A DNA stretch of 64,000 nt. Source: Stenotrophomonas rhizophila. GTDB taxonomy: Bacteria > Pseudomonadota > Gammaproteobacteria > Xanthomonadales > Xanthomonadaceae. Made by a program: the position numbers and the translations under genes. The notes beneath the pieces were generated by a model. It was given only the letters and a program-made list of their open reading frames with translations. It ran no database searches and had not been told where the DNA came from. This document shows, in pieces, positions 61,415 to 64,000 of this stretch. Position 1 is the first letter of the stretch. Each line of letters opens with the position of its first letter. Location: contig NZ_RCDC01000004.1 of the NCBI RefSeq assembly GCF_003651185.1, positions 2,404,659 to 2,468,658 on the forward strand. The letters are read 5' to 3'.

Positions 61415-61601
61415 GGCTTGCACGGCAGCGGCGGCATCGGTGAGGATGCCCCCTGCCCTGGACGCCTGGCCCCCGGGCCGGGCGGGGTGATGCTAGATTG
61501 CACACCTGCGGGTCCGCCGTGGACGTCGGGAAACGTCCATGGCCTTCGGTCGGCCTGACCGCATCAGGCTCTACGTATCGTCGTCTTCAAAGGGGAGTTG
61601 G

Positions 61602-62597
61602 ATGTCGCACGTCAAGACTCATGGCCCGGCGCGGCTGTTCGCGCCGATGATCCTGCTGGTGGCCCTGTCCGCCTGCTCGGGCAAGGACGAGACCGTACCG
61701 GCGACGCCGGCGGCCCCTGTGGCCCCCACTGCTGCCCCGGCCGCACCGGCGGTGTCGGCCAAGGTCCAGTCGATGGGCACCGAGGAACTGCGCGAGCTGG
61801 CCAGCAAGGCGCTGCGCGAGAACCGCATGTACGCCCCGGCCGGCGACAATGCCATCGAGTATTACCTGGCGCTGCGCGACAAGACGCCGGATGACGCCTC
61901 GGTCAAGAGCGCGCTGACCGATCTGCTGCCCTACACCCTGATCGCCGCCGAGCAGAACCTGGGCCGCGAGGACTTCGCCGAGACCCAGCGGCTGGTCGCG
62001 CTGATCGAAAAAGTGGACCCGACCGCCCCGGCGTTGCCGCGCCTGAAGCAGGGCATCAGCGGCAGCATGCAGACCGCCCTCAAGCGCACCCAGGAAGAGA
62101 CCGACAAGGTCAAGAAGGACGCCGAGACCCGCGCCAAGCAGCTGGTGGAACAGCAGAAGCTGGCCCAGCAGCAGACCACCGAAGCCGAGGCCGCACGGCA
62201 GATCGCCGCGCAGCAGGAAGCCGCGCGCCGTGATACGCAGGATGCCGAGCGCCAGGCCACCGCCCGTCGCGAGGCCGAACAGCGCCAGCAGCAGGCGGCC
62301 GCCCAGCAGGCGGCGGCGACCCGCCAGGCCGCCGCCGCACCCAGCCTGCGCCCAGTCAGCACGCCCGCCCCGCGCTACCCGGCCGACGCCCTGCGCTCGG
62401 GCATCTCCGGCGAAGTACTGGTCGAACTCACGGTCGGCACCGACGGCTCGGTGACCGCCGCTCGCGTGCTGCGCGCCACCCCGGCCCGCGTGTTCGATCG
62501 CGAAGCGCTCAATGCGGTCAAGCGCTGGAAGTTCGAACCGGTCGGTGCACCAGTCACGACGCGCCGTACGCTTGCCTTCGCGCCGGAAGGCGGCTGA
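61602..62597 (+). CDS. lipoprotein with C-terminal TonB domain
   Basis: The 331-aa protein has lipoprotein signal HGPARLFAPMILLVALSAC (lipobox LSAC, Cys25), followed by Ser at +2, which favours outer-membrane sorting. An Ala/Pro linker, a helical tetratricopeptide-like part (about 55-155) and a Gln/Ala/Glu-rich coiled coil (about 160-265) precede the TonB C-terminal domain. That domain reads RYPADALRSGISGEVLVEL, VGTDGSVTAARVLRATP and AVKRWKFEPV. TonB proteins normally have an inner-membrane anchor, so this topology is unusual. AGGGGAG lies seven bases before the ATG. A good terminator follows. Confidence 0.85.
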   Translation: MSHVKTHGPARLFAPMILLVALSACSGKDETVPATPAAPVAPTAAPAAPAVSAKVQSMGTEELRELASKALRENRMYAPAGDNAIEYYLALRDKTPDDASVKSALTDLLPYTLIAAEQNLGREDFAETQRLVALIEKVDPTAPALPRLKQGISGSMQTALKRTQEETDKVKKDAETRAKQLVEQQKLAQQQTTEAEAARQIAAQQEAARRDTQDAERQATARREAEQRQQQAAAQQAAATRQAAAAPSLRPVSTPAPRYPADALRSGISGEVLVELTVGTDGSVTAARVLRATPARVFDREALNAVKRWKFEPVGAPVTTRRTLAFAPEGG

Positions 62598-62621: not shown

Positions 62622-62651
62622 AAGGCCCGGAGCGATCCGGGCCTTTTTTTT
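62622..62651 (+). terminator. Rho-independent terminator of the TonB-lipoprotein gene
   Basis: AAGGCCCGGA-GCGA-TCCGGGCCTT with eight T (62644-62651). The last two T are also the first bases of the RAYT element. Confidence 0.85.
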
Positions 62652-62708
62652 AACGGGGACGGGGGTAGTTAATAACAGGGACGGAGGTAGTTAAGCGGAG
62701 GTAGTTAA
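62650..62708 (+). repeat. left inverted repeat of the RAYT element
   Basis: It begins TTAACGGGGAC and is built of three tandem units, each ending in GGAGGTAGTTAA or GGGGGTAGTTAA. The right arm, read inverted, differs by two substitutions and one short indel. Each unit contains GTAG, the tetranucleotide that heads REP elements. Confidence 0.9.
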
Positions 62709-62801
62709 GCGCGCTTCTCTTACGGCTGCGTGCACCACAGGCCTAGCTCTTTTTCCTGCGTGGGTCTGCAAGGTAACGGTTCGCCATCAACGTTGCCGAC
62801 C

Positions 62802-63497
62802 ATGCCCCGTTCCGCTCGCTTGGTTCTCCCCGGCATTCCGCTTCACGTCATACAACGTGGGGTCAATCGCGCTGCACTGTTCATCGACGATGAAGACCGG
62901 CGTCACTACCTGCGCCTGTTGCGCAATGCCTGCCGCAAGCAGGCGGTTGCCATTCACGCGTTCGTGCTGATGGGCAATCACGTCCATCTTCTGATCACAC
63001 CGTCTACAGTGGAGGGGCTGGCCCCCGCCATGCGGCAGTGTGGGCAGAACTATGTGCAGTACTTCAACAAGCGACATGTGCGGAGCGGTACGTTGCTGGA
63101 GGGCCGGTTCAAATCCTGCCTGGTGGATTCCGATGGTTACCTGTTGATGGTGCATCGATACATCGAGCTGAATCCGGTACGGGCCGCGATGGTGGCGTTT
63201 CCAGAGGAATATCGATGGTCCAGCGTTCGGGTGTACCTCGGCCTTGAGCACAACCCGATGCTGACACCACATCCCTGTTACACCCTCCTGGGCCCGACGC
63301 CGGAAGCGCGTGCGAATGCATACAGCGAATGGCTGCGGGCCAGCATTCAACCAGACGAACGAGAGCGGATCGTGATCTACGTCGCGCAGGAGCGCGCGTT
63401 GGGCAGCCCGCGCTTCCAAGACATGGTGGGACGGGCATTGCAGAGGTCCGTGGTCTGCAGGCTTGCGGGAAGACCGGTCAAGGAGACGGGCGACTAG
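62802..63497 (+). CDS. REP-associated tyrosine transposase (RAYT, Y1/IS200-like)
   Basis: HUH single-strand transposase of 231 aa. The N-terminus LPGIPLHVIQRGVNRAALF is the standard RAYT start. The metal-binding HUH motif is in VLMGNHVHLLITP (about residues 57-69), and the catalytic Tyr is in MVHRYIELNPVRA (about 120-132), followed by EYRWSS. ATG 62802 fits the family; a longer frame from 62730 has no homology. RAYTs are thought to move REP palindromes such as those in this window. No second transposase gene accompanies it. Confidence 0.93.
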   Translation: MPRSARLVLPGIPLHVIQRGVNRAALFIDDEDRRHYLRLLRNACRKQAVAIHAFVLMGNHVHLLITPSTVEGLAPAMRQCGQNYVQYFNKRHVRSGTLLEGRFKSCLVDSDGYLLMVHRYIELNPVRAAMVAFPEEYRWSSVRVYLGLEHNPMLTPHPCYTLLGPTPEARANAYSEWLRASIQPDERERIVIYVAQERALGSPRFQDMVGRALQRSVVCRLAGRPVKETGD

Positions 63498-63540
63498 CAG
63501 ACTATCGGTCAGCGTCCTGGTACCACCTGACGCCCCCGAA

Positions 63541-63600
63541 TTAACTACCTCCGAATTAACTACCTCCGTCCCTGTTATTAATTACCTCCGTCCCCGTTAA
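63541..63600 (-). repeat. right inverted repeat of the RAYT element
   Basis: It is the mirror of 62650-62708. Read on the minus strand it starts TTAACGGGGACGGAGGTAAT and ends GGAGGTAGTTAA. The middle unit GGGACGGAGGTAGTTAA is identical in both arms. Confidence 0.9.
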
Positions 63601-63603
63601 GAA

Positions 63604-63627
63604 GAAGGGCCCCTTTCGGAGCCCTTC
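63604..63627 (-). terminator. terminator hairpin of the permease gene
   Basis: On the minus strand GAAGGGC (63627-63621) pairs with GCCCTTC (63610-63604), five bases after the permease stop. The T tract beyond it is short and passes into the repeat of the RAYT element, which may have replaced the original one. Confidence 0.6.
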
Positions 63628-63632
63628 GTCGA

Positions 63633-64000
63633 TCAACCCGAAATCGCCAACCGCTCCTGGTGGTAGCGACGCACTGCGGCATACCAGAACAGCGCCGCCA
63701 GACCGAAGCCCGCGCCGAGGTAGACCGCCCACATCTGCGGGCTGATCGCTTCGTGGCGGATGATCTTGAGCAGCATCTGGTTCTGCGCCAGGAACGGCAC
63801 CGCGAACTGCCACAGCTCACTCTTGATCGGGTACACCATCAGCGCATACCCCGGCAGCATCGGCAGCAGCATCAGCCAGGTCATGTGGCTCTGGGCTTCT
63901 TTCATGCTTTTGGCGGCGGCCGAGAGGAAGGTCAGCAGCGACGTGCCGATGAACAGCATCGGCAGCATGATCAGCAGCATCTGCAGCATCGGCAGGAAGC
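63633..64000 (-). CDS. ABC-2 type transporter permease (5' end beyond window)
   Basis: The C-terminal 122 or so residues of a permease are visible. Four membrane segments are seen (LLIMLPMLFIGTSLLTFLS, WLMLLPMLPGYALMV, QFAVPFLAQNQMLL and VYLGAGFGLAALFWYAAV). AAAKSMKEAQ between the first two resembles the conserved loop of NatB-like ABC-2 permeases. The frame is open to the right edge, so start and N-terminal half are not seen. Confidence 0.82.
   Translation of the reverse strand, partial: FLPMLQMLLIMLPMLFIGTSLLTFLSAAAKSMKEAQSHMTWLMLLPMLPGYALMVYPIKSELWQFAVPFLAQNQMLLKIIRHEAISPQMWAVYLGAGFGLAALFWYAAVRRYHQERLAISG

Follow-up and report, generated by a model that had tools for sequence, protein, structure and literature searches.

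In the 64,000-nt window of Stenotrophomonas rhizophila DNA analysed here, positions 62651-63599 hold an intact Y1/HuH transposase gene framed by inverted arms, an element that belongs to the TIRYT/TIRtron group (TnpA-Y1 subclass 2.1, RAYT group 1) and not to the REP-tagged RAYTs. This TIRtron is probably a single-copy, mostly vertically inherited TIRYT that stays with its own arms at a fixed locus and acts, or has acted, in trans on arms dispersed elsewhere. TIRYTs have been little studied, and in the open literature searched the term turns up in two papers. The locus provides a natural series, in which the same gap occurs with two arm types and with the enzyme present or absent, and which lets the specificity of the enzyme for its arm, and its effect on the number and upkeep of hairpins, be tested directly.

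Architecture of the element and its arms

The element is flanked by two convergently oriented host genes that serve as syntenic anchors: on the left a plus-strand gene (61539-62597) with a C terminus that is TonB-like by eye, and on the right a minus-strand gene (63633-63989), membrane permease-like by eye, whose frame is open to the window end. The single open gene inside, on the plus strand at 62802-63497, encodes a TIRYT of 231 aa with the HuH motif N59-H60-V61-H62 and a putative catalytic Y120 in YIELNP. The inverted arms around it (62639-62694 and 63556-63611) are 56 nt long and 91% complementary, and under a simple match scheme their inverted-repeat score is 41, compared with a maximum of 12 in 500 dinucleotide-preserving shuffles. 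Each arm is made up of two tandem head-to-tail 22-bp units (TAACRGGGACGGRGGTARTTAA) and an inward partial third copy of 14-16 bp, where the outer unit reads TAACGGGGACGG[A/G]GGTA[A/G]TTAA, the inner unit reads TAACAGGGACGGAGGTAGTTAA, and a GGGGAC tip is present. In the left arm, on the plus strand, the outer unit TAACGGGGACGGGGGTAGTTAA (62651-62672) is followed by the inner unit TAACAGGGACGGAGGTAGTTAA (62673-62694) and a 14-bp partial copy (62695-62708); in the right arm, on the minus strand, a 16-bp partial copy (63540-63555) is followed by the inner unit (63556-63577) and the outer unit (63578-63599; TAACGGGGACGGAGGTAATTAA on the minus strand).

The original prediction had described near-identical inverted ends of three tandem units, of which the inverted arms stand and the three units become two full ones and a partial one. 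Both partial copies are absent in the three closest gene-bearing relatives: S. maltophilia 13146 (G102, L052) and Stenotrophomonas sp. SAM-B (G022, L053) have two units on each side, and S. rhizophila BIGb0145 (G045, L051) has two left-hand units and a single right-hand unit, so that the "three tandem units" are in part a strain-specific duplication. The borders lie where they had been placed, the left one adjoining the T run in the terminator of the upstream gene (about 62625-62650) and the right one coinciding with the base of another hairpin, which lies towards the convergent gene. The element-free relatives G018 and G013 also have this upstream terminator, which therefore belongs to the host, and the element-bearing S. 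maltophilia 13146 lacks it. It had also been correctly anticipated that a single arm contains no hairpin, since the folding of either gene arm is no better than that of shuffles (-0.8 and -0.7 kcal/mol). GTAG, which had been noted in the units, is present in most arm units. The right outer unit, the sister arm family described below and one of the two halves of the C7 palindrome lack it; it is incidental here and no conserved tag.

Dispersed arm units and their match to the transposase type

The arm unit also occurs elsewhere in the genome, where the 15-mer GACGGAGGTAGTTAA is found 23 times with up to two mismatches, compared with 6 times for a reversed-pattern control. When an exact degenerate 16-mer of this unit (unit 1) was counted in 91 genomes of the genus, the window genome (G000), G045 and G022 each held 25 copies and G102 held 17, and of the other 87 genomes 78 held none and nine held one to six (G095 6, G018 5, G003 4), with two control matches in all genomes together. 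These four unit-1-rich genomes, and no others, have a best TIRYT match of 85% identity or more.

A sister arm, GGGGACGGAGGGGATTAAG (unit M), is found in 39 of the 91 genomes (control 0). All 20 genomes with a full-length TIRYT of 49-56% identity carry it, at 13-100 copies each, as do 19 of the other 71, at up to 78 copies, and none of the four unit-1-rich genomes does; among carriers, the median copy number is 71 with the cognate TIRYT (n=20) versus 32 without (n=19). Arm type matches transposase type, with the qualification that the genomes are related, which inflates the association tests and makes their p values nominal. In these counts, G019 (65%, a partial match of 161 residues; no unit M), G081 (55%, residues 2-226, lying beyond the left flanking gene; no unit M) and G001 (56%, a match of 143 residues only) were scored as being without a type-M TIRYT, and moving G019 and G081 into the type-M TIRYT set gives 20 of 22. 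The ISL67 locus (L054) was excluded from this association test and included in the distance comparison below. In G109 and G116, whose TIRYTs are 63-65% identical, neither unit is found by the exact patterns.

Palindromes at gene ends

Outside the gene, the units of the window genome lie at 12 sites, 11 of which are inverted pairs with loops of 1-22 nt, and two of these palindromes folded as single-stranded DNA reach -31.3 and -24.7 kcal/mol (z -11.7 and -8.3). The suggestion that the ends need both arms to meet before they fold holds for the gene's own arms; the arms elsewhere are close inverted pairs that fold alone. Across six genomes, 49 site records make up 12 ortholog groups, each with the window genome and at least two others, and a recheck with 148-bp flanks found both flanks adjacent in all partners except two (G045 522k, right only; G102 68k, left only). 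The window genome has no private palindrome site, all 12 being common to at least two other genomes, and recent hopping is therefore not seen in this clade. At the five sites compared with more distant genomes, these have no palindrome: it is lacking at site 2495k in G002, G013, G026 and G043, at site 2530k in G018, G013, G026 and G043, at site C6 in G018, G014, G013, G009, G016 and G002, at site 1513k in G018, G095 and G108, and at site 1665k in G018, G095, G108 and G040. The TIRYT-bearing G102 has just TAACG at site 1513k, where G000, G045 and G022 have the palindrome.

Some sites vary in other ways. At site 2495k (L008 versus L243/L292), sister genomes differ by one extra 22-bp half unit, which is TTAACTACCTCCGTCCCTGTTA in the window genome. 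Site C6 has one palindrome in G000 and G022, and in G045 (L285, about 1201-1737) both a full palindrome and a single separate unit, with some 500 bp that include extra DNA lying between the two. At L339 (G022 C1:830k), a hairpin that resembles a GTAG-type REP by eye abuts a degenerate TIR unit at the letters GTAG. A hot spot common to both palindrome types was considered and set aside: in a comparison with 40 sampled type-M loci, two of the 12 sites share their gap with a type-M palindrome, and a third candidate (1274k) was dropped, as it lies about 600 bp away from the palindrome.

The palindromes are located near gene ends, and their terminal TAA is the stop codon of at least one flanking frame at 5 of the 12 sites by a mechanical ORF call. 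Together with the lack of private sites, the pairing kept in the stems and the persistence of unit M in genomes without a full-length cognate TIRYT, this location is what might be expected if the palindromes were selected host hairpins, serving as terminators or mRNA 3'-end elements, and the transposase descended from the enzyme that spread them and were now inactive on them. We consider this account unlikely, if worth serious attention, given that genomes with the cognate TIRYT have more copies and that the gene is intact, with its HuH and tyrosine residues conserved.

Upkeep of the palindrome stems

The two arms of a palindrome differ from each other at 1.5 positions on average (40 palindromes), compared with 2.15 for arms taken from different palindromes of one genome (314 pairs), and 1 of 5000 permutations gave a value as low; pairs were readable at 40 of the 49 records, and three G003 sites were left out. 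Evidence for paired changes comes from one type-M site that was located in 31 of the 31 genomes searched (L404-L424, palindrome at about locus position 1834-1917). Of 28 aligned genomes, 21 have the palindrome at this site, G035 and G048 have an almost empty gap right behind the stop codon, and five have other filler. At stem positions 12 and 15, a departure from the majority on both sides is seen in 4 and 8, respectively, of the 21 genomes, and a departure on a single side in none. Among the 13 distinct rows there are 13 two-sided cells versus 4.1 in shuffles (0/500), and the covariation score is 0.122 versus 0.072 shuffled (0/500 as high), with at most one two-sided cell and a score of at most 0.066 in slid controls; four pairs show a two-sided change, a number reached in 20 of 500 shuffles, and further pair types (7) at this site were not above shuffles. 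The central column, which has a base in 18 of the 21 rows, is always G or C, as if the hairpin had been inverted.

Template switching between inverted repeats has been described to homogenise their arms and to invert the spacer (PMC8604942), and hairpins can be created and maintained by it (PMC8794818). Compensating changes in the arms and inversion of the spacer are what such switching would give. The present case differs from the systems described there in that the pattern is seen on TIRYT palindromes in bacteria, and template switching would be its presumed cause.

A second feature of these sites is that tandem duplications of 10-17 nt straddle the palindrome border in 7 of the 49 type-1 records (L014, L015, L260, L267, L280, L170 and L171, in five ortholog groups), compared with 12 of 1960 control intervals. 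At type-M sites, none was found in 40, versus 7 of 1600 controls, and the reading of these duplications as a general scar of enzyme action was rejected because they are enriched at type-1 sites only. It is conceivable, and in our judgement improbable, that the TIRYT has been domesticated and that its present job is the repeated in-place nicking and rejoining of gene-end palindromes and not transposition; such nicking would keep the arms complementary, giving two-sided changes and an inverted centre, and would leave the border-straddling duplications.

Inheritance of the gene at one locus

A protein search of the window genome returned a single copy of the transposase, G045, G102 and G022 gave one match each, and 44 of the 91 genus genomes gave none at E <= 1e-20. 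Among the 59 flank loci from the genus, the left flanking gene has a TIRYT hit downstream of it in 21. Of these, 18 extend to the right-hand gene, and three (G084, G091 and G044) stop inside the TIRYT; many type-M genomes first have more than 1 kb of extra DNA. Several of the other loci end short of the right-hand gene. TIRYT distances track those of the flanking proteins, with a Mantel r of 0.90 in the 17 genomes that have all three proteins (0/5000 permutations as high) and 0.93 within 12 type-M genomes (1/5000), and the TIRYT is the more diverged, by a median ratio of 3.0. One discordance, in which the TIRYTs of G034 and G046 are 6% apart, yet the flanks of G034 are nearer those of genomes whose TIRYTs differ by 19-21%, indicates that some horizontal exchange occurs.

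In the close sister G018, which has no TIRYT (L155), an MFS-like gene (named by eye) occupies the same gap. Among the flank loci of the relatives, no clean pair of empty and filled sites for the gene itself was found.

The whole unit does not look mobile. What had been predicted was a true mobile element, a RAYT with repeat-built inverted ends; the RAYT-related gene, the long inverted repeats and the occurrence of the unit elsewhere in the genome were upheld, and the mobility was not, given one copy, the same gap in related species and distances that track the flanks. The search for further copies, empty sites and repeat units that had been suggested with it gave no second gene copy, no clean empty site and the 12 sites of dispersed arms in the window genome, and the four closest carriers have the gene at the same locus with no other copy of its lineage. 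An ordinary autonomous insertion sequence, in which gene and arms transpose as a whole, might be recognised in the intact gene between near-identical inverted ends, in the related proteins that other genera of this order encode, some with several in one genome, and in the 44 genomes without a match. Related proteins are also carried by plasmids, in 25 records that all fall below 60% identity, and one phage record matches over 64% of the query; none is near the lineage of the window. This explanation is very improbable, as neither multiple near-identical copies nor varying loci were found in the clade, divergence at the shared gap is in step with that of the flanks, and the 91 searched genomes already suggest that the TIRYT lineage has no second locus.

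Protein family and assignment

The protein matches the Pfam Y1_Tnp model above its cut-off (E 8e-11) and the NCBIfam REP_Tyr_transpos model at 54.6 bits, under its cut-off of 80. Across 24 aligned sequences, Y120 never varies and H60 and H62 hardly do, and the AlphaFold2 model built from these sequences, which supersedes an earlier one from 8 sequences (pLDDT 57), has a mean pLDDT of 87. Its best PDB match is the E. coli RAYT 4er8 (Z 16.9, rmsd 2.4, 159 residues), with the IS608 transposase as a weaker match (Z 10.2). C-terminal helices are predicted at 167-179, 184-195 and 203-212, with no Pfam HTH match for the protein queried whole; no PHROGs family was matched, and a sequence search of solved structures returned a single match, a cysteine desulfurase at E 0.34. 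The HuH motif NHVH and the tyrosine motif YIELNP fit TnpA-Y1 subclass 2.1, and the position of the W[EQ]/FQ motif is taken by LE (TLLEGRF) in the window protein, by WE in L054 and by FQ in L055.

TIRYTs are described as being flanked by terminal inverted repeats (TIRs), some of which share GGGGWSAS, and these TIRs form dispersed families (Di Nocera et al., 2013, PMC3733652). The arms of the window (GGGGACGG) agree with GGGGWSAS except at position 7, and those of related TIRYTs that bear GGGGTCAG match it in full. The best inverted repeat around the gene contains GGGG[AT]C at 27 of 32 loci from the window genome, the genus and the order (including L052 and L054), and at only 2 of 20 more distant related loci examined, most of which gave arms of chance length. 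Of the features of a TIRYT, a Y1 HuH tyrosine transposase gene, long terminal inverted repeats in place of REPs and dispersed TIR copies were found. That the element is instead a canonical RAYT flanked by GTAG REPs, which GTAG in most arm units and the match to the REP_Tyr_transpos model might suggest, can practically be dismissed, as that match is below the cut-off, the arms are unfolded by themselves with no GT[AG]G foot beside a hairpin, and GTAG is not conserved between the arm families.

A model for the TIRtron

In the TIRtron account that we favour, the TIRYT would keep its own binding arms at a fixed chromosomal locus and would act, or would have acted, in trans on the same arms where these are arranged as inverted pairs. 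When such a pair becomes single-stranded, for example at a replication fork, it would fold into a hairpin that the HuH enzyme could nick and rejoin, and now and then this would place a copy of a short palindrome at a gene end. The arms of the gene itself, which are about 830 bp apart, would rarely meet, and the gene would therefore stay put, with movement of the whole gene being rare. Once inserted, the palindromes would long outlast the insertion, and the complementarity of their arms would be kept mainly by template switching during replication. Counting against this account are the lack of a recent insertion in the clade and of a clean empty and filled pair for the gene, the 19 genomes that keep unit M without a full-length cognate TIRYT, the relatedness of the genomes, the two measures of paired change at the type-M site that shuffles also reach, and the exchange indicated by G034 and G046.

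Comparison with known systems

The closest likeness is to the TIRtrons of Di Nocera et al. (2013, PMC3733652), in which a tyrosine transposase lies inside long terminal inverted repeats and copies of the arms are dispersed, in some species as singles, dimers or clusters. As far as that description goes, the present arm differs in being a doubled 22-bp unit that starts with TAAC, and in its departure from GGGGWSAS. Two TIR families were reported there for S. maltophilia K279a, and these, compared by description only, may include the type-M arm. The genus also has a second TIRYT lineage (L042, L043, L044, L046 and L048), whose arms carry GGGGTCAGATCCCTTT and a partner GGGCTCTGACCCC, are partly self-complementary and resemble what is described of the K279a ORF 1152 family (PMC3733652). 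In the open literature searched, with the K279a families compared by text alone, no earlier description of this arm family or locus was found; a matching string in PMC4853749 is a PCR primer and was set aside.

Quentin et al. (2018, PMC6006769) characterise subclass 2.1 of TnpA-Y1, or RAYT group 1, by an HuH motif of NHVH or NH[YF]H, a tyrosine motif of YIELNP or Y[IV]HLNP, a C-terminal helix-turn-helix domain and genes with no REPs nearby, and regard the TIRYTs of Di Nocera et al. as its probable equivalent. The window protein shares both motifs, a similar length (231 aa versus a median of 238) and the lack of GT[AG]G REPs at the gene. It departs from the subclass, which is described there as having no REP-like repeats, in its dispersed palindrome family and in its LE in place of W[EQ]/FQ.

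In REPIN-RAYT systems, a single-copy transposase is inherited and its hairpins are commoner where the cognate enzyme is present (PMC8049555), and the same pattern has been reported for REPs in Stenotrophomonas and Pseudomonas (PMC3686654). The element described here resembles them, as these sources portray them, in its single-copy inherited enzyme and in its dispersed hairpin-forming pairs, of which there are more with the cognate transposase; unlike them, it has no GT[AG]G foot, and a lone unit forms no hairpin, so that only the inverted pair folds. What is added here, from the comparison of 91 genomes, is the inheritance at a shared locus and the match of arm type to enzyme type. Taken together, these facts fit a counterpart of the REPIN-RAYT systems in the TIR branch, and suggest that the single-copy, inherited behaviour of those systems extends to that branch.
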